From Symbiobacterium sp. (GTDB taxonomy: Bacteria > Bacillota > Sulfobacillia > DUSP01 > DYEP01): a stretch of 33,577 nucleotides of DNA. The position numbers and the translations under genes were made by a program. The notes beneath the pieces are model-generated. The model made no database searches. It had not been told where the DNA came from and was given only the letters and a program-made list of their open reading frames with translations. The stretch covers positions 1-33,577 of the forward strand of contig DYEP01000043.1 in the NCBI GenBank assembly GCA_020725675.1, written 5' to 3'. This document shows, one piece after another, positions 3,176 through 31,537 of the stretch (position 1 is the stretch's first letter; each line of letters opens with the position of its first letter).

Positions 3176-3949
3176 TTGAAGAAATACCCGTGGTCTTTTA
3201 GTTCCATCAGGTCCTTCGCCAGGCGAATCAGGTCTGCGATTCTTCCGGTATGGCGTTACGCTCCAAAGAGCAGGCGAGGGAGGCTTGCCCTGCTGGTCGT
3301 CGCCGTGGCAGTTGTGGTTGGAACAGTGGGTATACTGAGGTTCCAGAGTCCGAGGTTGGAGCTTCCCGCGCCGGAGCAACCGCCCGCGCTGCTGTCAGGG
3401 CCCGACCTGGAGGTGACGGAAAAACCCGAGCCCGAGGTCAGCATACTTGATACCGACCAGCCCACGGGCCCGCAGGATACGACAGAGGTTGATGCTGAGC
3501 CCGTATTGGAGGCTTTCGCGCCTGAAGCGCCGGGTCTTCCCAGGGTGGAGGAGAGCTTCATCTACTCCATGGTGGCCCCGGTTGAAGGAGACGTACTGCT
3601 TCCCTTCGGCTGGATCTTTTCCCCTGCCTACCGGGACTGGAGGTATCATACCGGTGTGGACATAGACTCCTATCTCGGTGAACCCATAAGAGCCGTGTTG
3701 GCGGGAACGGTGACAGACGTCACCACCGAAGGAAAGGTACTGAAGGTGGTCATAACTCATGCTGCAAACCTGCTGACGGTGTACACGAACTGCCAGGGAG
3801 TGAACGTTAAACCGGGTGACAGTGTGAAGAAGGGCGATGTCATCGCATATGTAGGTGAACCATCCGCCGACCATATCGACACGCCCCACCTGCACTTTGA
3901 AATCTTCTTTAACGATAACCGAGTGGACCCGCTGGTGTATCTGCCGTGA
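3176..3949 (+). CDS. spoIIQ: SpoIIQ-like M23 (LytM) endopeptidase
   Basis: Forespore membrane protein expected to pair with SpoIIIAH across the intermembrane space during engulfment. The 257 residues comprise a basic N-terminal tail (1-36), one membrane segment (about 37-54), a Pro/Glu/Asp-rich linker (about 60-125) and an M23 domain (about 135-257). Zinc ligands are intact: His158 and Asp162 in HTGVD, and His238/His240 in HLHFE. The domain is therefore probably catalytic, unlike B. subtilis SpoIIQ, which lost a zinc ligand. The position between spoIID and spoIIID matches the clostridial spoIIQ order. Start is TTG 3176 with GGGGTGATG at 3162-3170; with the predicted promoter this leader would be only about 14 bases, so the exact start is less sure. 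Confidence 0.88.
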   Translation: MKKYPWSFSSIRSFARRIRSAILPVWRYAPKSRRGRLALLVVAVAVVVGTVGILRFQSPRLELPAPEQPPALLSGPDLEVTEKPEPEVSILDTDQPTGPQDTTEVDAEPVLEAFAPEAPGLPRVEESFIYSMVAPVEGDVLLPFGWIFSPAYRDWRYHTGVDIDSYLGEPIRAVLAGTVTDVTTEGKVLKVVITHAANLLTVYTNCQGVNVKPGDSVKKGDVIAYVGEPSADHIDTPHLHFEIFFNDNRVDPLVYLP

Positions 3950-4318: not shown

Positions 4319-4419
4319 AAACTTAGTGGCAGAATAAAGGAAATGTGCTTGTGGTCGTAGAATGGTAAAACCGTGCCGCAAGGCCGGTAGTTTTGTTTAA
4401 GCAGAGGGGGGACAGGCCT

Positions 4420-5442: not shown

Positions 5443-5514
5443 GTAGAAATCTTTGCAGAAAGTTTTTAGAAAGAAGGAATTTGGCAAAACTGGTAGAACA
5501 TAAACGATTACCAA

Positions 5515-5655
5515 GCTTTTCGAAAAAGGCAAACCCATCGAAAGGTGGGGGCGCAAAGTCACGGGTCTAACACCCTCCGGGTTATGACGGCCGGGCTGCC
5601 GAAAGTGACGGTACAGCAACCTGTTTTTCGGCAGTGCGGAAAGCAGGTTTTTTTG
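5515..5655 (+). promoter_or_regulatory. Cyclic-di-GMP-I (GEMM-I) riboswitch with terminator platform
   Basis: The aptamer (about 5515-5605) shows the conserved blocks of the class in order: GGCAAACC (5528-5535), a CGAAAGG GNRA-loop hairpin, GGGGGCGCAAAG, CACGGGTCTAA, the tetraloop receptor around CTCCGGGTTATGACGG, and GGGCTGCC closing P1. The base before CAAACC is G, the identity linked to c-di-GMP rather than cGAMP recognition. Downstream is a 12-bp terminator (5618-5654). CTGCCGAAA (5596-5604), at the 3' side of P1, is perfectly complementary to TTTCGGCAG (5626-5634) in the terminator, giving a mutually exclusive antiterminator. The inferred logic is that ligand stabilises P1, frees the terminator and turns off flgF-flgG. 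No clear promoter is visible between mbl and the aptamer. Confidence 0.93.
5618..5654 (+). terminator. Terminator of the c-di-GMP riboswitch
   Basis: AACCTGTTTTTC (5618-5629) pairs over 12 positions (with G-U pairs) with GGAAAGCAGGTT (5638-5649) around an 8-nt loop, followed by a run of T. It lies 25 bases before flgF. Confidence 0.88.
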
Positions 5656-5678
5656 TTTGTTAGAAAGGAGGTGATCAT

Positions 5679-6425
5679 ATGGTAAGAGGCATACATACAG
5701 CTGCTTGCGCCATGATAGCAGAGCGGGAGAGGCTTGAGGTGACTGCAAATAACATTGCCAACAGTAGCACTGCTGGATTCCGAAAGGATCTGATCACGTT
5801 TGTGCAGGGGCGGAAGATGCAGATGTTCAGGGCAGGCGACGGATCCTACTCGTTTCCGTACGTCGGGGAGCTGGGCACGGGCTCTGTTGTTTTGGGGGTG
5901 AGCGTGAGCCAGGCGGCGGGTGCTCTTGTGTACACGGGCAACCCTCTTGACGTGGCGGTTTTGGGAGATGGCTTCTTTGCCCTGTCAAGCCCTGATGGTA
6001 TCCGGTATACAAGGAACGGAGCCTTCAGCCTGGACTCGCAGGGCCGCCTGGTATCGCAGGAGGGCTACGCGGTTCTCGGGCGTGAGGGCGTCCTGCGCAT
6101 CGAGGGCGAGGCAGAGATCGGGCCAGACGGTCAGGTCATGCAGGGGTCCACGGTGGTCGGCAGGCTTGCAATCTACCGCTTTAATGACCCTTCGGGGCTG
6201 ATAAAGCGCGGGCAGACGCTGTTTGAACCCTCGGCGGCTTCCGGGCCCGCTATCTTAACAGACGGAAATCTTCGGGTAGGCTTTCTTGAATCATCCAACG
6301 TTAACCCCATGCAAGAGATGGTGAACCTGATTACTATCATGAGGTCCTACGAGGCATGCCAGAGGTATATGAGTGTTCAGGATGAAATGCTGTCTAAAGC
6401 GGTAAACGACGTGGCGAGGGTATAA
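5679..6425 (+). CDS. flgF: Flagellar basal-body rod protein FlgF / FlhO
   Basis: Rod protein of the flagellar basal body, exported by the type III system. The 248 residues show the N-terminal rod-family signature LEVTANNIANSSTAGFRKD (about 23-41), a central domain with GDGFFALSSPDGIRYTRNGAF, and the C-terminal signature beginning ESSNVNPMQEMVNLITIMRSYEA. Start is ATG 5679 with a very strong AAAGGAGGTGATC just upstream. It is the first gene after the c-di-GMP riboswitch and forms an operon with flgG and the FlgJ-like gene. The mbl-flhO-flhP order is as in B. subtilis. FlhO, a distinct paralogue name, is equally suitable. Confidence 0.93.
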   Translation: MVRGIHTAACAMIAERERLEVTANNIANSSTAGFRKDLITFVQGRKMQMFRAGDGSYSFPYVGELGTGSVVLGVSVSQAAGALVYTGNPLDVAVLGDGFFALSSPDGIRYTRNGAFSLDSQGRLVSQEGYAVLGREGVLRIEGEAEIGPDGQVMQGSTVVGRLAIYRFNDPSGLIKRGQTLFEPSAASGPAILTDGNLRVGFLESSNVNPMQEMVNLITIMRSYEACQRYMSVQDEMLSKAVNDVARV

Positions 6426-6516: not shown

Positions 6517-7299
6517 GTGTTGAGAGCACTTTATACGGCTGCGACCGGCATGTACGCCCAGCAGCTCAATGTAGATGTTATCGCCCACAACCTGTCCAAC
6601 GTGAACACTACGGGGTACCGGAGAAGCCGCGTGGAATTTCGGGACCTTGCATACGACATCATAAGGCCTGAAGTGGCCGGCGGGCCTCCCGCAGGCTACC
6701 AGGTAGGCCATGGAGTGGTGGCGCTATCCACCCCGAAATCCTACAGGCAGGGGAACTTTGAGCAGACCGAAAGAGATCTGGACCTTGCCATAGAAGGCAG
6801 AGGGTTTTTTCAGGTGAGGTTGCCGGACGGCACCACGGGGTATACCAGGGACGGCAGTTTTCAATTATCGGCCAACGGGAGGATCGTCACTCAAGAGGGA
6901 AACGAATTGATCATTCGCGGAAACGCCACCATACCGGCGGATGCCGAGCGCATTACTATAGACAGGGATGGAACGGTCATGGTGCTCACGGGGGCAAGTT
7001 CCACTCCGACTCAGCTGGGGACCATTGAACTGGCGTTTTTCCGTAATCCTGCGGGCCTTGAAAGCCGTGGAGGGAATGTAATGGTTGCCACCGTAGCGTC
7101 CGGGCAGCCTACTACCGCATCCCCGGGATCTCGAGGAGCAGGAGTGGTGCTGCAGGGGTATCTGGAGCGTTCCAACGTGCAGGTACTTGAGGAGATGGTA
7201 GGGTTGATCACGGCGCAGAGGGCATACGAGCTCAACAGCAAGGTGGTCTCTGCATCGGACGAGATGATGGGCATTACGAATAACGTCAGGCGAGGCTGA
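6517..7299 (+). CDS. flgG: Flagellar basal-body distal rod protein FlgG / FlhP
   Basis: Distal rod or hook-basal-body protein, 260 residues. It carries N-terminal MLRALYTAATGMYAQQLNVD and NLSNVNTTGYRRSRVEF, a central GRGFFQVRLPDGTTGYTRDG, and C-terminal LERSNVQVLEEMVGLITAQ with RAYELNSKVV, all typical of FlgG-like proteins. Start is GTG 6517 after AGGGAGGGC; a TTG three bases on (6520) is also possible. The 91 bases between flgF and flgG contain no clear terminator, so the genes are probably co-transcribed under the riboswitch. Confidence 0.93.
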   Translation: MLRALYTAATGMYAQQLNVDVIAHNLSNVNTTGYRRSRVEFRDLAYDIIRPEVAGGPPAGYQVGHGVVALSTPKSYRQGNFEQTERDLDLAIEGRGFFQVRLPDGTTGYTRDGSFQLSANGRIVTQEGNELIIRGNATIPADAERITIDRDGTVMVLTGASSTPTQLGTIELAFFRNPAGLESRGGNVMVATVASGQPTTASPGSRGAGVVLQGYLERSNVQVLEEMVGLITAQRAYELNSKVVSASDEMMGITNNVRRG

Positions 7300-7305
7300 T
7301 AAAAG

Positions 7306-7542
7306 ATGAGAGTTCAGGGGACAACCCTGCAGGAGACTGCGTCCGCAGAGCAGCTCAGGCGTGCCTGCCAGGATTTTGAAGCACTGTTTATTCAGGAACT
7401 GCTGAAGTTCATGCCAGCTCCTCCGGGGAGCCCTGTGGCCTATCAGGATCTCGGGTACTGGGAACTGGCACGTTCGCTCGCATCAGCGGAAACACTGGGG
7501 ATCGGACGAATGCTTTATGAATGGATGAACCGACACGGCTAG
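7306..7542 (+). CDS. flgJ: FlgJ-like rod-binding protein
   Basis: Small protein matching the rod-binding N-terminal domain of FlgJ, without the muramidase domain found in proteobacterial FlgJ. The 78 residues contain RRACQDFEALFIQELLKFM (about 19-37), the family signature, and end in an amphipathic stretch with ETLGIGRMLYEWM. It starts at ATG 7306, six bases after flgG, with only a weak AAAAGATG ribosome site, so translation is probably coupled to flgG. It ends the riboswitch-controlled operon; a terminator begins at its stop codon. Confidence 0.85.
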   Translation: MRVQGTTLQETASAEQLRRACQDFEALFIQELLKFMPAPPGSPVAYQDLGYWELARSLASAETLGIGRMLYEWMNRHG

Positions 7543-8052: not shown

Positions 8053-8069
8053 GTTAGTGATATATACCG

Positions 8070-8233
8070 CTCATCTGGAGCAGGATGAGGGACCGGCCCG
8101 ATGATTCCTCGGCAACCCCCGCCTTCTGGCGGCACTGGTGCCAAGCCCGGCAGAGTGGTTATGGCGCATCTGGCCATATTCCAGTTCTGGAGGATGAGAC
8201 ATTAGAAACCCTCGAGGACGGGGGGATTTTTTT
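8070..8233 (+). promoter_or_regulatory. SAM-I (S-box) riboswitch with terminator
   Basis: P1 is closed by CTCATC (8070-8075) and GATGAG (8193-8198). Conserved blocks lie between: GATGAGGGACCGGCCCGATGA, CCTCGGCAACC, GGTGCCAAGCCCGGCAGAG and the pseudoknot-bearing hairpins of the class. A short terminator stem with seven T (8208-8233) ends one base before the first possible start codon of the methyltransferase gene. Expected logic: SAM binding causes termination, and low SAM permits expression of the methionine and SAM genes downstream. Confidence 0.95.
8208..8233 (+). terminator. Terminator of the SAM-I riboswitch
   Basis: CCCTC (8209-8213) pairs with GGGGG (8220-8224, one G-U) over a 6-nt loop, followed by GATTTTTTT. 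The stem is short, but placement and T-run are right for an S-box terminator. Confidence 0.7.
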
Positions 8234-10990: not shown

Positions 10991-11055
10991 GAACTTGAAG
11001 GAATAGACCTTTGTGTGAAGAAACACATGGGCATAAGACAGCTGGGGGATCATGC

Positions 11056-12711
11056 ATGAGTCCGGTTTCGAGGTCCGCGGAGCGTTACAAATGGATTGTT
11101 GGCGTGGCCGGGCTGGTTGTGCTGCTTATCCTCACCCCATTTGTGGGAAGATTGGATGGACGAGCCTTCCTATTCTTTGCCACCCTGGCTACCCTTGGAG
11201 AATGCTTGCTCATTAAGCTGCCCCACCAGGGCGGGCGGATCAGCATCACCTTTGCCGTGCTGTTTCCCAGTTTTATCCTGTTTGGGCCGGTGGTGGCGGC
11301 CTGGATTAACGTGATCGCCAGCTTTATCAGCAGTTCATTGCTTCACAGGAGACCCATCTCAGTCGTCCTGTTCAACATGGGCCAGTATGCGATGTGCATG
11401 GTAATTGCAAGCGGGGCGTACCTCGCACTCGGGGGTTCGTTCGGGGTAATTCCTTCCGTTATGAGCGCGGTAGCGTTTGTACTCACTTATTTTGTGACAA
11501 ACCACCTTTTGGTCAATACCTACTTTTCAATCCTTCTGAAAGAAAAGTACGGGCCGCTTCAATGGCTTGAATCAATCAAGTGGGATGGGCTCAACCATGC
11601 GATGACCATCCCCCTTTCGGTGCTGATGCTAGTGCTGTATATCGAAAAAGGTATGTTCGCTTCGGCCGTGGTGTTCCTTTCGGTACTCGCCATCGCATAT
11701 ATCCTTCGGATACAGATGGAATTGGCGCTGGCCAACCAGGAACTGGCAGCGCTATACTATGCGGCACAGGAACTGAACTCCACACTGGATGTAAGCAGAA
11801 TCTTTTCGGTCATGCTTGAGACGATGAGGCGGCTTATGGATTTTCACACGTGTGCGCTGTTGCTTTGGGATGAGCAACGTAAGGAACTGAATGTGGTCAT
11901 GGTACAAAACCCGACAGAAGAACTGAACGAGTGCTGCACGTTCAGCCTGGCGGATGGGGTCTTGGGCAGTGTGGCTGAAACAAAGAGGGCACAGATTCTA
12001 GATGACATATCCACCGAACCGCAGAATCCCTGGAAGAAGGAAGGGGGTTCTGGGCTAAAATCCCTGCTCGTCGTGCCGCTTGTTGTCGAGGACCATCTTG
12101 TGGGTGAACTGGTTGTGGGCAGCACCGGCAAGGGTGAGTTCACGCCTGAACACTTGAGGCTGAGCACCATCCTGGCGAGCCAGGCAGCCATCGCCATAGA
12201 GAACGCCATCCTTTACTCACGGACAGAGCAGATGGCGATAACCGATCCGATGACCGGACTTTACAACTATCGCTTTTTCTACATGAAGATGAGCGACGAA
12301 CTCCGAAAGGCAAAACGCACGGATACGCCGCTGTCCATAATATACTTGGATCTTGATGATTTTAAAAAATACAACGACGCCTACGGTCACTTGGTGGGCG
12401 ACGAGATACTCCGAGAGTTTGCTAAAATTTTGAGCGAGGCGGTCAGGGATTGTGACGTGGCTGCCAGGTATGGCGGGGACGAGTTCGTTGTGCTTCTGGC
12501 AGGCACTGACTTGCAGGGCGCAGAACACGTGGCGGCGCGGATCAAGAGCACCGTAGAATCCCATGAGTTCATTAAAGACCACGTCGCAGGTCCGGTTTCT
12601 TTGGGCGTCAGTGTGGGTGTGGCGTCCTACCCCGAACACGGCGGCACAGAGAGCCTGCTCATTGCGTACGCCGACAGAGCAATGTTCGCGATGAAGAAGG
12701 CCGCATCATAA
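11056..12711 (+). CDS. Membrane GAF-GGDEF diguanylate cyclase
   Basis: Predicted enzyme condensing two GTP into cyclic di-GMP at the membrane. About 551 residues: N-terminal membrane domain of five to six helices (about 12-215), a short helical linker, a GAF sensor domain (about 230-385), and a GGDEF domain (about 390-550). The active motif is intact (YGGDEF, Gly473 onward), with the family landmark DPMTGLYNYRFF before it. The inhibitory I-site RxxD is present (Arg464-Asp467), five residues before GGDEF, so product inhibition is expected. ATG 11056 after CTGGGGGA is the likely start; TTG 11011 would add 15 non-conserved residues. It lies directly before the flagellar gene yvyF. The membrane domain resembles those of the two HD-GYP proteins at 28924 and 30233. 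Confidence 0.9.
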   Translation: MSPVSRSAERYKWIVGVAGLVVLLILTPFVGRLDGRAFLFFATLATLGECLLIKLPHQGGRISITFAVLFPSFILFGPVVAAWINVIASFISSSLLHRRPISVVLFNMGQYAMCMVIASGAYLALGGSFGVIPSVMSAVAFVLTYFVTNHLLVNTYFSILLKEKYGPLQWLESIKWDGLNHAMTIPLSVLMLVLYIEKGMFASAVVFLSVLAIAYILRIQMELALANQELAALYYAAQELNSTLDVSRIFSVMLETMRRLMDFHTCALLLWDEQRKELNVVMVQNPTEELNECCTFSLADGVLGSVAETKRAQILDDISTEPQNPWKKEGGSGLKSLLVVPLVVEDHLVGELVVGSTGKGEFTPEHLRLSTILASQAAIAIENAILYSRTEQMAITDPMTGLYNYRFFYMKMSDELRKAKRTDTPLSIIYLDLDDFKKYNDAYGHLVGDEILREFAKILSEAVRDCDVAARYGGDEFVVLLAGTDLQGAEHVAARIKSTVESHEFIKDHVAGPVSLGVSVGVASYPEHGGTESLLIAYADRAMFAMKKAAS

Positions 12712-13169: not shown

Positions 13170-13204
13170 GATAATCCGAAGATGTACCCAAAGAGGTGGG
13201 TCGG

Positions 13205-13507
13205 ATGAAAATTTCCAAAAACCAGATGGATGAAGTGATAAGAGCGTATCTGAAGGCACCCCGCACAGAAAAGCAGTCGCAAATAGGTACGGCCAAGGGC
13301 GAAAAGACACGTATGGATAGGGTGGCGCTGTCGTCAGAGGCCCAGAGGCTTGCAGACTACGTGAGCCTGGCAAAGTCCCTTCCGGAAGTACGCAAGCATC
13401 TTGTGGAAGAGATCGCCAGACGGCTGGACAGCGGAGAATACAACGTGGGATCGTACGAGATTGCCGAGAAGATGCTGGCAAGAGAGCTGGCTGACAGCCT
13501 GGAGTGA
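13205..13507 (+). CDS. flgM: Anti-sigma-D factor FlgM
   Basis: Cytoplasmic inhibitor of the flagellar sigma factor sigma-D (SigD/FliA), exported or neutralised once hook assembly is complete. About 100 residues. A disordered polar N-terminal half carries the typical MKISKNQMDEVIRAY opening. The helical C-terminal half holds DRVALSSEAQRLADYV and the sigma-binding region RLDSGEYNVGSYEIAEKML, the hallmark (VxxGxYxxxxxxIAxxL) of the family. ATG 13205 after AGAGGTGGG is the likely start; the frame is open to a GTG at 13196. It begins the flgM-flgN-flgK-flgL-fliW-csrA run. Confidence 0.93.
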   Translation: MKISKNQMDEVIRAYLKAPRTEKQSQIGTAKGEKTRMDRVALSSEAQRLADYVSLAKSLPEVRKHLVEEIARRLDSGEYNVGSYEIAEKMLARELADSLE

Positions 13508-17189: not shown

Positions 17190-17357
17190 TGAAAACAAAT
17201 TGTGCAGTCCTTCGGTTCCGGCGCCGGACAAGAGGATGCATACCCCGGCCATCCCGTGCCGCCAGGCGGTTCGGCCGACCGCCTGGGCGGTAAGGGACAA
17301 CATCAACACCCTGGGCAGGGAGGCTCAGGGAAAAACATCAAGGAGGATGAAAAGCGA
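17190..17357 (+). promoter_or_regulatory. hag 5' leader with candidate CsrA sites
   Basis: This fills the gap between csrA and hag. A strong hairpin lies at 17259-17290 (CCGCCAGGCGGT with ACCGCCTGGGCGG, one bulge). A second hairpin, CCCTGGGC (17310-17317) with GCTCAGGG (17324-17331), displays the hexaloop AGGGAG, with GGA at 17320-17322. The Shine-Dalgarno AAGGAGGA (17341-17348) supplies a second GGA about 23 bases on, a spacing one CsrA dimer could bridge. A further AGAGGA occurs at 17231-17236. The frame is open through the leader from a TTG at 17202, but it is not flagellin-like. Confidence 0.7.
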
Positions 17358-18170
17358 ATGGGTCTTCGGATTAACACCAACATTGAAGCGCTGAACTCGC
17401 ACAGGAATCTTTCGGTAACGGCAGGGGCGCTCTCCAAGTCGATGGAGAGACTGTCCTCCGGACTACGCATCAACCGCGCGTCAGACGACGCAGCAGGGCT
17501 TGCGATTTCGGAGAAGTTGAGCAGCCAGGTAAGAGGTCTGAACCAGGCCATAAGAAACGCCCAGGATGGCATTTCCCTCATTCAAACGGCTGAAGGTGCG
17601 TTGAACGAAACTCACAACATTCTCCAGAGAATGCGCGAACTAGCAGTTCAGGCTGCAAACGGAACGCTGTCAGATGACGACAAGTCTGCAATTCAGGAAG
17701 AGATCGCCCAGCTTATAGATGAAATCGACAGGATCGCGGATACCACAGAATTCAACACCATGCAGATTCTAAACGGAACTGCAGGAACCATCACGTTCCA
17801 GATCGGAGCCAACTCTGGCCAGACCATCGACGTGGTTCTGGATTCAATGAAAGCCGCATCGCTTGCTGTAGACGGAGTAGATGTTACAGCCGACGCGGAT
17901 GCAGCCATCACCTCGCTTGACGCAGCCATAAAGACCGTATCCACTGAACGCGCCAAGCTCGGTGCTTTGCAGAATCGACTGGAGCACACCATCGCTAACC
18001 TCGGCGTGGCATCGGAAAACCTGCAGGCAGCCAACTCACGAATCAGAGACATTGACATGGCTCAAGAGATGATGAATTTTACCAAACTCCAGATCTTGCA
18101 ACAGGCGGGTACGGCCATGTTGGCTCAGGCGAACATGGCGCCCCAGGCGGTGCTGCAGCTGCTCGGATAA
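17358..18170 (+). CDS. hag: Flagellin
   Basis: Filament subunit. The 270 residues are short for a flagellin and hold essentially only the conserved D0/D1 parts: N-terminal MGLRINTNIEALNSHRNL, SMERLSSGLRINRASDDAAG and LQRMRELAVQAANGTLSDDD, then a brief central segment (about 140-195) and C-terminal TERAKLGALQNRLEHTIANL, followed by NSRIRDIDMAQEMM and the family's C-terminal helix. Start is ATG 17358, nine bases after AAGGAGGA. Expected control: sigma-D promoter plus CsrA-FliW translational control at the leader. A glycosyltransferase gene follows directly. Confidence 0.97.
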   Translation: MGLRINTNIEALNSHRNLSVTAGALSKSMERLSSGLRINRASDDAAGLAISEKLSSQVRGLNQAIRNAQDGISLIQTAEGALNETHNILQRMRELAVQAANGTLSDDDKSAIQEEIAQLIDEIDRIADTTEFNTMQILNGTAGTITFQIGANSGQTIDVVLDSMKAASLAVDGVDVTADADAAITSLDAAIKTVSTERAKLGALQNRLEHTIANLGVASENLQAANSRIRDIDMAQEMMNFTKLQILQQAGTAMLAQANMAPQAVLQLLG

Positions 18171-28923: not shown

Positions 28924-30216
28924 ATGCCGCGGTTGCAATGGAGCAGACTTTATGCACTCATCGTCACTACTACCGGGTTACTCCTCTTGGTATCCTGGTG
29001 GCCTGCTCTCAGGCAGCACGCCTGGGAACAGGTCGCGTTTTTTTCTTTGCTGGCGCTGGCAGCGGAGGCAATGCCCGTCACCCTTCCCCGCCGTGACGGT
29101 ACGGTGTCAGTAAGTTTCGCCATATTCTTCGCCACGATAATTGTGCTTGGCCCAGAAGCTGCCGCATGGGTCGCTGCAATCGGGTCTATCAGGGTGAAAG
29201 ACCTTCGGGGCCAGACTCCCATTGATATGGTACTTTTCAACAGGGGCATGGTCGCGCTCGTTGCGGGGCTTTCCGGACTTGCTTATAGGGCGGCGGGCGG
29301 TACTGTCGGAGCCGTAAGTGCCCTGAGTGATGTTGTACCACTGGCCCTGTGTGCGGTTGTATATGCTCTCACTAATGTCACGTTTGTCGTATTTTTCCTT
29401 GCCTTAAGGCAGAAAATGTCCATCTGGGGAGTATGGGCGCTGAACCTGAAGTGGTTGCTGCCTAACTATCTTGCGCTGGCGCCCATTGGGTCTCTGCTTG
29501 CCTCGAGCTACCTCAGATCTGGACCTGTCGGGATAGGTCTCTTTTTCCTTCCGCTTCTTATGGCGAGGTATTCCTTTCAAAGGTTCATTGACATGAGGCG
29601 GATGTACTTGGACACAGTCAGAGCGCTCACCACTGCGCTTGAGGCCAAGGACCCGTACACAAAGGGGCATTCAGAACGGGTTGCGCAGTTGTCAGTGAAA
29701 CTGGGGCGCAAGATGAATTTGCCCGAGGATCAAGTAGAATTGCTCGAATATGTCGGCCTACTGCACGATATCGGGAAGATCGGCGTTCGTGATTCAGTAC
29801 TTAAAAAGCCGGGCATTTTTGCTTCAGAGGAATATGCCGAGATGCAGAGGCACCCCGTTATCGGCGGTCAGATCATTAGGGATATACGCCTTCTAGGGAA
29901 GGCTGCGTCCTGGGTACGATATCACCATGAAAGGTGGGATGGTGCGGGCTTCCCGGAAGGGCTCGCGGGGGAAGAGATACCACTTGGAGCGAGGATCATC
30001 GCGGTATGCGATGCATTTGACGCTATTACCTCAGAGCGACCGTACAAGCGCGCATTCAGCATTGCAGAGGCCAGACGCGAGGTGATGAGGGGCTCCGGCA
30101 CGCAATTTGATCCTGCAGTGGTATCGGCACTCATGGAAGTCACGCAAGCGGAGTACGAAGAAGAATTAAGGGCCGTTCAGGCACAGACCGAAGCCGCAGC
30201 ATCTCGAGACGCATAG
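28924..30216 (+). CDS. Membrane HD-GYP protein, probable c-di-GMP phosphodiesterase
   Basis: Predicted to hydrolyse cyclic di-GMP. 430 residues: a membrane domain with about six helices (about 8-215), then an HD-GYP domain (about 225-415). Motifs are TKGHSERVAQLSVKLG, LLHDIGKIGVRD (His281-Asp282, Lys285), HHERWDGAGFPEGL and AVCDAFDAITSERPYKRA. The GYP triplet is GFP (342-344), a conservative change; metal-binding His and Asp positions look intact. Start is ATG 28924; the nearest ribosome site, GAGGGGAG (28903-28910), is 13 bases away, so the start is a little uncertain. The membrane domain resembles that of the GGDEF protein at 11056. The next gene begins 16 bases after its stop. Confidence 0.9.
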   Translation: MPRLQWSRLYALIVTTTGLLLLVSWWPALRQHAWEQVAFFSLLALAAEAMPVTLPRRDGTVSVSFAIFFATIIVLGPEAAAWVAAIGSIRVKDLRGQTPIDMVLFNRGMVALVAGLSGLAYRAAGGTVGAVSALSDVVPLALCAVVYALTNVTFVVFFLALRQKMSIWGVWALNLKWLLPNYLALAPIGSLLASSYLRSGPVGIGLFFLPLLMARYSFQRFIDMRRMYLDTVRALTTALEAKDPYTKGHSERVAQLSVKLGRKMNLPEDQVELLEYVGLLHDIGKIGVRDSVLKKPGIFASEEYAEMQRHPVIGGQIIRDIRLLGKAASWVRYHHERWDGAGFPEGLAGEEIPLGARIIAVCDAFDAITSERPYKRAFSIAEARREVMRGSGTQFDPAVVSALMEVTQAEYEEELRAVQAQTEAAASRDA

Positions 30217-30232
30217 CCGGGGGAGGAGTCAG

Positions 30233-31537
30233 GTGGCCGGATATTCTTCCAACTATAGAAGATATATTGTGGCTGTATGCGCTGGGACTCTTCTCATGGC
30301 GGGATACCTCGTGTTCACTCGCGTCAGGGTTACCGCGGCGCTTGGTTTCTTTGTACTTCTCACTGCGCTCTTGAGGTTGATCCCTATCGATCTGGACGCC
30401 ACCGCCCAGCTTGACATAACACCCTCAGCGGACCTTTCCGCTATTATCCTGCTGACTCCCCATGCTTCCATGATTTCGGCGCTGCTTGGGCGTGTGTTGT
30501 CTGAGGTAGTCCACAAGGAACGCTGGAAGACAGCGGACCTGATGGATATGGTTGCCTGGTACAGGTCGTGTGAACCAGCACTTGCCACGTTGGTGGCGGG
30601 GTTTGGTTACCGACTGCTTGAGGGCATAAAGCCTGGGACCTCGTTTATCTGGGTTGTGTTGCCTCTGTCCGGGGCTGCCATTGTATACTACTTCACCCTC
30701 ACTTGTCTTAAGTCGCTCGAGGAACACAAAAGGTACCGTGTAAACTTCTGGATAGCCTTCAGGGTCAACCTGAAAAACCCACTCGGAATGGTCGTAAATC
30801 CCGTTCTTGGCCTGGCGACCGCCGCGTTCTATTACTACCAGGACCTGGGCGGGTTCGGGATCATGCTATTTGTGGTGTCCCTGCTTGTTGTCATTTATGC
30901 TACTCGATTATTTGTAGACATGAAAGTGGTACACAGACACACCATCGAAGCGCTAGTAAGTTCGATCGAGGACAAAGAACCACTGTCTCGAGGGCACAGC
31001 ATCAACACTGCGCATCTTGCGGCGGCCATTGCCAGAAAGATGGGGCTTGACGAGGCAAAAGTGACGGAAATTTACTGGGCAGGGCTCTTGCATGACGTGG
31101 GTAACCTTGGTACCGATGAACGCCTCTTGGCGCATCCTGGGCCGCTCAGAGAGGATCAATTCGCTCTGATACAGAATCACTGCGTAGTAGGCGCAGGGCT
31201 TGTATCCAACGTCCCTTTTTTGAAAAACACCGAACGGGCGATTCTTTACCACCATGAGCACTACGACGGCACGGGTTACCCTGCTGGCTTAGCAGGCAAC
31301 CACATACCACTTGAAGCAAGGGTGTTGGCGTGTGCAGAGGCGTTCGACGCCATGATACAGGACCGTCCCTACAGGAGGGCGCTCCCCCTCCACGAGGCTT
31401 ACGAGGAGATAGTTAAGATGTCCGGTCGCAAGTTGGACCCGGATGTGGTGGCAGTGTTCAAAGAAGTATTTAAGGACATAGAGAGGATGGGTCTTGATGT
31501 TTTCCGGCGCCATCATAGTCTCGATACTAATCGGTAA
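30233..31537 (+). CDS. Membrane HD-GYP protein with altered catalytic positions
   Basis: 434 residues: membrane domain (about 10-225) and HD-GYP domain (about 235-425). HHEHYDGTGYPAGL is canonical (GYP 348-350). HDIGK, however, reads HDVGN (His287 to Asn291), and the usual metal-binding Asp of the xxDAFDAM motif is Glu369 in CAEAFDAM. It may be slower, use other metals, or serve as a c-di-GMP sensor. Start is GTG 30233 after GGGGAGGAG. It lies 16 bases after the first HD-GYP gene and overlaps the next gene by 41 bases, so the three form one operon. Tandem duplication of the first HD-GYP gene followed by divergence is likely. Confidence 0.88.
   Translation: MAGYSSNYRRYIVAVCAGTLLMAGYLVFTRVRVTAALGFFVLLTALLRLIPIDLDATAQLDITPSADLSAIILLTPHASMISALLGRVLSEVVHKERWKTADLMDMVAWYRSCEPALATLVAGFGYRLLEGIKPGTSFIWVVLPLSGAAIVYYFTLTCLKSLEEHKRYRVNFWIAFRVNLKNPLGMVVNPVLGLATAAFYYYQDLGGFGIMLFVVSLLVVIYATRLFVDMKVVHRHTIEALVSSIEDKEPLSRGHSINTAHLAAAIARKMGLDEAKVTEIYWAGLLHDVGNLGTDERLLAHPGPLREDQFALIQNHCVVGAGLVSNVPFLKNTERAILYHHEHYDGTGYPAGLAGNHIPLEARVLACAEAFDAMIQDRPYRRALPLHEAYEEIVKMSGRKLDPDVVAVFKEVFKDIERMGLDVFRRHHSLDTNR

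Follow-up and report, generated by a model that had tools for sequence, protein, structure and literature searches.

The window analyzed here is a 33,577-nucleotide stretch of DNA from Symbiobacterium sp. (contig DYEP01000043.1), in which the gene order spoIIID-mbl-flhO-flhP-fabZ matches that of B. subtilis. On the forward strand, flhO (5679-6425) encodes a FlgF-like distal rod protein that contains the Flg_bb_rod, LlgE_F_G_D1, and Flg_bbr_C domains and scores above the cut-off of TIGR03506 and slightly under that of the flgF model. It is followed on the same strand by flhP (6517-7299), whose product is an FlgG distal rod protein (TIGR02488, 314 bits, above cut-off), and by a short ORF (7306-7542) that weakly resembles the N-terminal, rod-binding part of FlgJ, with neither match reaching its cut-off (PF10135, E = 0.006; TIGR02541, E = 0.001, short by a wide margin). 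An initial annotation of this DNA had named flgF, flgG, and flgJ as the regulated genes; the first two assignments hold, and FlgJ is reduced to a weak match below the cut-offs. The B. subtilis proteins FlhO and FlhP are distal rod subunits (PMC12153297). The same window encodes FlgM (13196-13507) and flagellin (17202-18170). Near the flagellar cluster are likely c-di-GMP turnover genes, namely one for a MASE9-GAF-GGDEF protein (11011-12711) and two adjoining ones for HD-domain (HD-GYP-like) proteins (28924-31537), one of which also has a MASE9 domain. Separately, a SAM-I riboswitch (RF00162, 64 bits) is found at 8068-8200, upstream of ORF 8234 and of ORF 9277, the latter an S-adenosylmethionine synthetase by sequence.

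The 5′ leader of flhO contains a c-di-GMP-I-clan aptamer at 5519-5604 (+), 75 nt upstream of the gene, in keeping with the placement of RF01051 before motility, membrane, and environment genes. An Rfam scan at gathering thresholds reports this aptamer as RF03167, c-di-GMP-I-GGC, whose gathering score it passes (75.4 bits, E = 2e-16), and the GEMM-I covariance search called for in the initial annotation scores RF01051 at 83.8 bits over 5518-5603, above the 35-bit gathering threshold. The winner within the clan thus differs by measure, being RF03167 by E-value and RF01051 by bits. The conserved blocks GGCAAACC, a GAAA tetraloop in P2, CGCAAAG, and the 3′-end GCUGCCGAA are all present, so that the earlier GEMM-I identification and its full set of blocks are borne out. 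In the alignment, a G occupies the position that we take to be equivalent to G20 of Vc2, an A occupies the presumed A47 equivalent, and the conserved 3′ GCC is in place. The aptamer is like the RF01051 family in sequence, structure, G20, and A47, and differs from it only in ordinary variation: the sole unusual base is G43 in place of A (GGGGGCGC), shared by most flhO-linked relatives.

Downstream of the aptamer, a terminator scan identifies a single terminator-like hairpin in the leader (5618-5649, +; 13 pairs, 6-nt loop, −17.0 kcal/mol), followed by TTTTTGTTTG with a U-tract at 5650-5659. The hairpin itself had been annotated before, with 12 pairs instead of the 13 found here. The 3′ strand of the aptamer (5595-5604, P3/P1 side) can pair with 5626-5635, within the 5′ arm and loop of the terminator, in a 10-bp antiterminator helix of nine Watson–Crick pairs and one G-U pair. 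The previously noticed 9-base perfect complement between 5596-5604 and 5626-5634 is exact, and the G-U pair 5595/5635 lengthens it to 10. This complement exceeds the chance level: a match of at least 9 is reached in only 17 of 5000 shuffles of the 50 downstream bases, and an equally good duplex energy in 23 of 2000. The leader as a whole also folds more stably than its shuffles (z = −3.4). In the minimum free energy structure, the exchange of strands is double, a feature absent from the initial description: besides the helix of 5595-5604 with 5626-5635, there is one between the 5′ strand of P1 (5515-5522, GCUUUUCG) and the 3′ arm of the terminator (5637-5644, CGGAAAGC). This antiterminator fold has a predicted energy of −55.5 kcal/mol, compared with −45.7 kcal/mol for aptamer plus terminator when ligand and tertiary contacts are excluded. 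On these terms a gap of 9.8 kcal/mol disfavors the aptamer-plus-terminator state, so the default is predicted to be read-through, and the ligand would have to pay for termination. The terminator begins 14 nt past the aptamer and shares no base with it, and the antiterminator requires the 3′ strand of the aptamer. A terminator placed downstream of an aptamer, with an antiterminator built on aptamer sequence, is the build of an OFF riboswitch, which supports the OFF architecture proposed earlier. By this folding model, c-di-GMP should terminate transcription at the flhO leader.

Seven c-di-GMP-I-family aptamers are found in the genome, that of the window included, and the genes downstream of them were named from their sequence. 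One precedes the main flagellar operon (flgB-flgC-fliE-fliF-fliG-fliH-fliI-fliJ...flgE; C11:21601-21691, minus strand) and has the OFF architecture, with a downstream terminator like that of the flhO leader. Two lie on contig C171, one before a Flp/Tad pilus operon with a small Flp pilin ORF, and one before a transglutaminase gene; the others precede a TPR-protein gene (C215), a probable secreted-protein gene (C100), and a PAS-GGDEF diguanylate cyclase (C113:8731-8813). This last aptamer has G47 and is a true GGC variant, and in its leader the 3′ strand of the aptamer itself serves as the 5′ arm of a perfect terminator, giving an ON layout. Placed before a diguanylate cyclase, this layout possibly provides positive feedback on the signal itself.

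A single-sequence search of the genome contigs for related loci returned only four distant rod proteins, so the comparison rests on 60 class-level relatives, whose assemblies are often fragmentary. Matches to RF01051 are present in 58 of the 61 genomes obtained when that of the window is counted in. In 24 of the 60 relatives, spanning families of the class, a same-strand aptamer lies shortly upstream of the best FlhO-like gene, which in a few families is a best FlgG-like match and not a clear FlhO orthologue. An Mbl gene adjoins this locus in 19 of the 24. Among the flgB loci scanned in flhO-aptamer genomes, 19 of 20 have an aptamer upstream, and the twentieth is cut by a contig end; one further genome (G006) has a flgB aptamer as judged from coordinates. 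Counted by relative, every flhO-aptamer genome with enough sequence to check (20/20) also has an aptamer before flgB, and the pairing of the two switches is the rule among checkable relatives.

These results bear on the reading given in the initial annotation, that c-di-GMP acts at a dedicated mid-assembly checkpoint and controls rod completion alone, sparing early and late flagellar genes. The window aptamer does indeed lie on the distal-rod operon, and the flgB aptamer of this genome carries A20, which might reduce its response to c-di-GMP relative to the flhO aptamer. The early genes are not expected to be spared, however, since an OFF-layout aptamer precedes flgB in the same genome and in all 20 checkable relatives, and the flgB aptamers read in 11 relatives all keep G20. 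The exclusion of late genes fails as well, because loss of flhO-flhP in B. subtilis lowers SigD-dependent expression via FlgM (PMC5540618). Nor is there support for an unusual choice of the mid-assembly step, as a flgB switch accompanies the flhO switch in every checkable case. A checkpoint confined to the rod is considered very unlikely.

A second alternative is that the leader is a degraded or constitutive attenuator, with a relic aptamer and an unregulated terminator, or with an effect on translation only. Some class I aptamers of C. difficile are non-functional (PMC6366702), and the competing folds of the window leader are close in energy: with the terminator enforced and the aptamer left free, the predicted energy is −54.1 kcal/mol, within 1.4 kcal/mol of the more stable antiterminator fold. 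This small gap suggests that ligand-free read-through may be leaky. Against a relic, families across the class retain the aptamer, the terminator, and the matching antiterminator helix. A terminator of −13 kcal/mol or stronger follows the aptamer in 19 of the 25 flhO leaders and every one of the 12 flgB leaders, and each genome's own aptamer tail and terminator arm anneal better than between-genome swaps (10 of 20000 permutations as good overall; 92 of 20000 in the flhO set alone; in the flgB set alone the effect is not significant, at 3608 of 20000). The OFF layout is conserved among the flhO and flgB leaders of the relatives. With respect to translation, the ribosome binding site of flhO (AAAGGAGGTGAT, 5664-5675) lies outside every switching helix. 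The attenuator reading is accordingly assigned very little probability.

A different ligand, either cGAMP (GEMM-Ib) or that of the c-di-GMP-I-GGC variant, was considered with marker positions taken from the Rfam consensus and general background. In favor of the variant, RF03167 is the best Rfam model by E-value, but the aptamer has an A at position 47 where the GGC model has its marker G, and RF01051 is higher in bits; the GGC assignment was rejected on these grounds even though the gathering score of RF03167 is passed. Aptamers of the cGAMP type have an A at position 20, whereas the window aptamer has a G; it is the flgB aptamer of this genome that bears the cGAMP-type A. Hypr cGAMP synthases carry a Ser at the Asp position of the GGDEF signature, and each of the four GGDEF domains detected in the genome has the canonical Asp; cGAMP synthesis is therefore not predicted, and a cGAMP switch was likewise rejected. 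By G20 and A47, the ligand pocket appears to be of the ordinary c-di-GMP type, and another ligand is extremely improbable. An ON switch, in which the ligand would block termination and raise flhO-flhP expression, has a precedent in B. thuringiensis Bc2 (PMC6366702) and a counterpart by layout in the diguanylate cyclase leader of this genome, but the overlap of terminator and aptamer that holds for that leader was rejected for the window, where the terminator contains no aptamer base and the antiterminator does, and this direction is scarcely credible.

Upstream of the aptamer, a promoter scan yielded no sigma-70-like promoter, and a sigma-H-type motif was found instead (AGGAATT-N11-GTAGAAC; 5475-5499, +). 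Relative to the boxes expected of a sigma-H promoter (AGGAWWW, 11-12 nt spacer, RNNGAAT, in a genome with sigH), it is off by one base, the last of the −10 box. The RNA is predicted to start near 5506, immediately 5′ of the P1 strand. SigH is encoded in the genome (TIGR02859, 383 bits), in which the strict motif occurs ten times, compared with zero in a reversed control; one exact occurrence lies directly upstream of a gene that is Spo0A by sequence. Across the class, the composite motif AGGAW-N2-N11/12-RNNGAAY precedes the aptamer in 16 of the 25 flhO leaders and 6 of the 12 flgB leaders that carry one (shuffles give no more than 1). It recurs in 6 of 19 members of a larger flgB leader set drawn from loci of flhO-aptamer genomes and in none of the 18 flhO loci that lack an aptamer. 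Published SigH promoters of C. difficile match these boxes, with 11 nt between them (PMC7438776). Transcription probably begins from this sigma-H-type promoter directly 5′ of the aptamer, whose presence beside the aptamer is a new observation of this analysis. A second sigma-H-type motif (AGGAAATGTGCTTGTGGTCGTAGAAT) lies at 4338-4363 of the window, directly upstream of mbl.

The aptamer, the terminator, the mutually exclusive helices, their conservation, and the paired occurrence are computed results; ligand binding, the direction of switching in the cell, and the use of sigma-H are inferred. The leader of flhO-flhP and the flgJ-like ORF is very probably a c-di-GMP OFF switch and one of two parallel brakes, the other being that on flgB. 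In the proposed mechanism, the element serves as the operon's 5′ leader, with RNA that would start just 5′ of the aptamer. In the absence of ligand, the antiterminator (5595-5604 with 5626-5635, and 5515-5522 with 5637-5644) would form and RNA polymerase would continue into flhO-flhP. Binding of c-di-GMP would lock P1 and P3 and withhold the strand 5595-5604, upon which the 5618-5649 terminator would fold and transcription would end. With the second OFF switch acting in parallel on the flgB operon, high c-di-GMP would halt the early basal-body and distal-rod genes together and would lower the late genes indirectly via FlgM and SigD. On the evidence of its sequence, the element is judged to be real and to be an ordinary c-di-GMP-I OFF switch, set in a two-operon, sigma-H-linked context, with binding of c-di-GMP predicted. 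A more speculative extension, which we regard as rather unlikely, is that in this class a preformed unit of sigma-H promoter and c-di-GMP-I OFF switch, present on both the early and the distal-rod operon, lets flagellum building respond to the sporulation-transition sigma factor and to c-di-GMP at two steps of assembly, and that the sensors have diverged in this species (G20 in flhO, A20 in flgB), so that c-di-GMP would gate rod completion more tightly, with the early operon answering to a different threshold or ligand.

OFF switches of the c-di-GMP-I class on flagellar operons are already known, best from flgB of C. difficile. What is added here is that, in many families of a single class, a separate distal-rod operon beside mbl carries such a switch, which is accompanied by one on flgB wherever this can be checked and often by a sigma-H-type promoter. 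If transcription tests agree, these spore formers would couple the assembly of their flagella to both c-di-GMP and a transition-phase sigma factor, in contrast to the SigA promoter mapped for C. difficile flgB and to B. subtilis flhO, which SigD controls. The spoIIID-mbl-flhO-flhP region of B. subtilis has the same gene content as the window (PMC5540618, PMC12153297). To our knowledge, no c-di-GMP riboswitch is present there. In B. subtilis, flhO is under SigD control (PMC5540618), in contrast to the sigma-H-type promoter before the window aptamer. A close likeness is to the C. difficile switch Cd1 (Cdi-1-3) on the flgB operon, which was shown experimentally to be an OFF terminator switch and likewise combines a c-di-GMP-I aptamer, an intrinsic terminator, and OFF logic on a flagellar operon (PMC6366702, PMC6200980). 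The OFF direction predicted for the flhO leader agrees, by analogy, with these class I switches. Cd1 belongs to the early flgB operon, which is transcribed from a SigA promoter (PMC7438776), whereas two switches are observed here, one on flgB and one on a separate flhO-flhP operon by mbl, with a sigma-H-type promoter.
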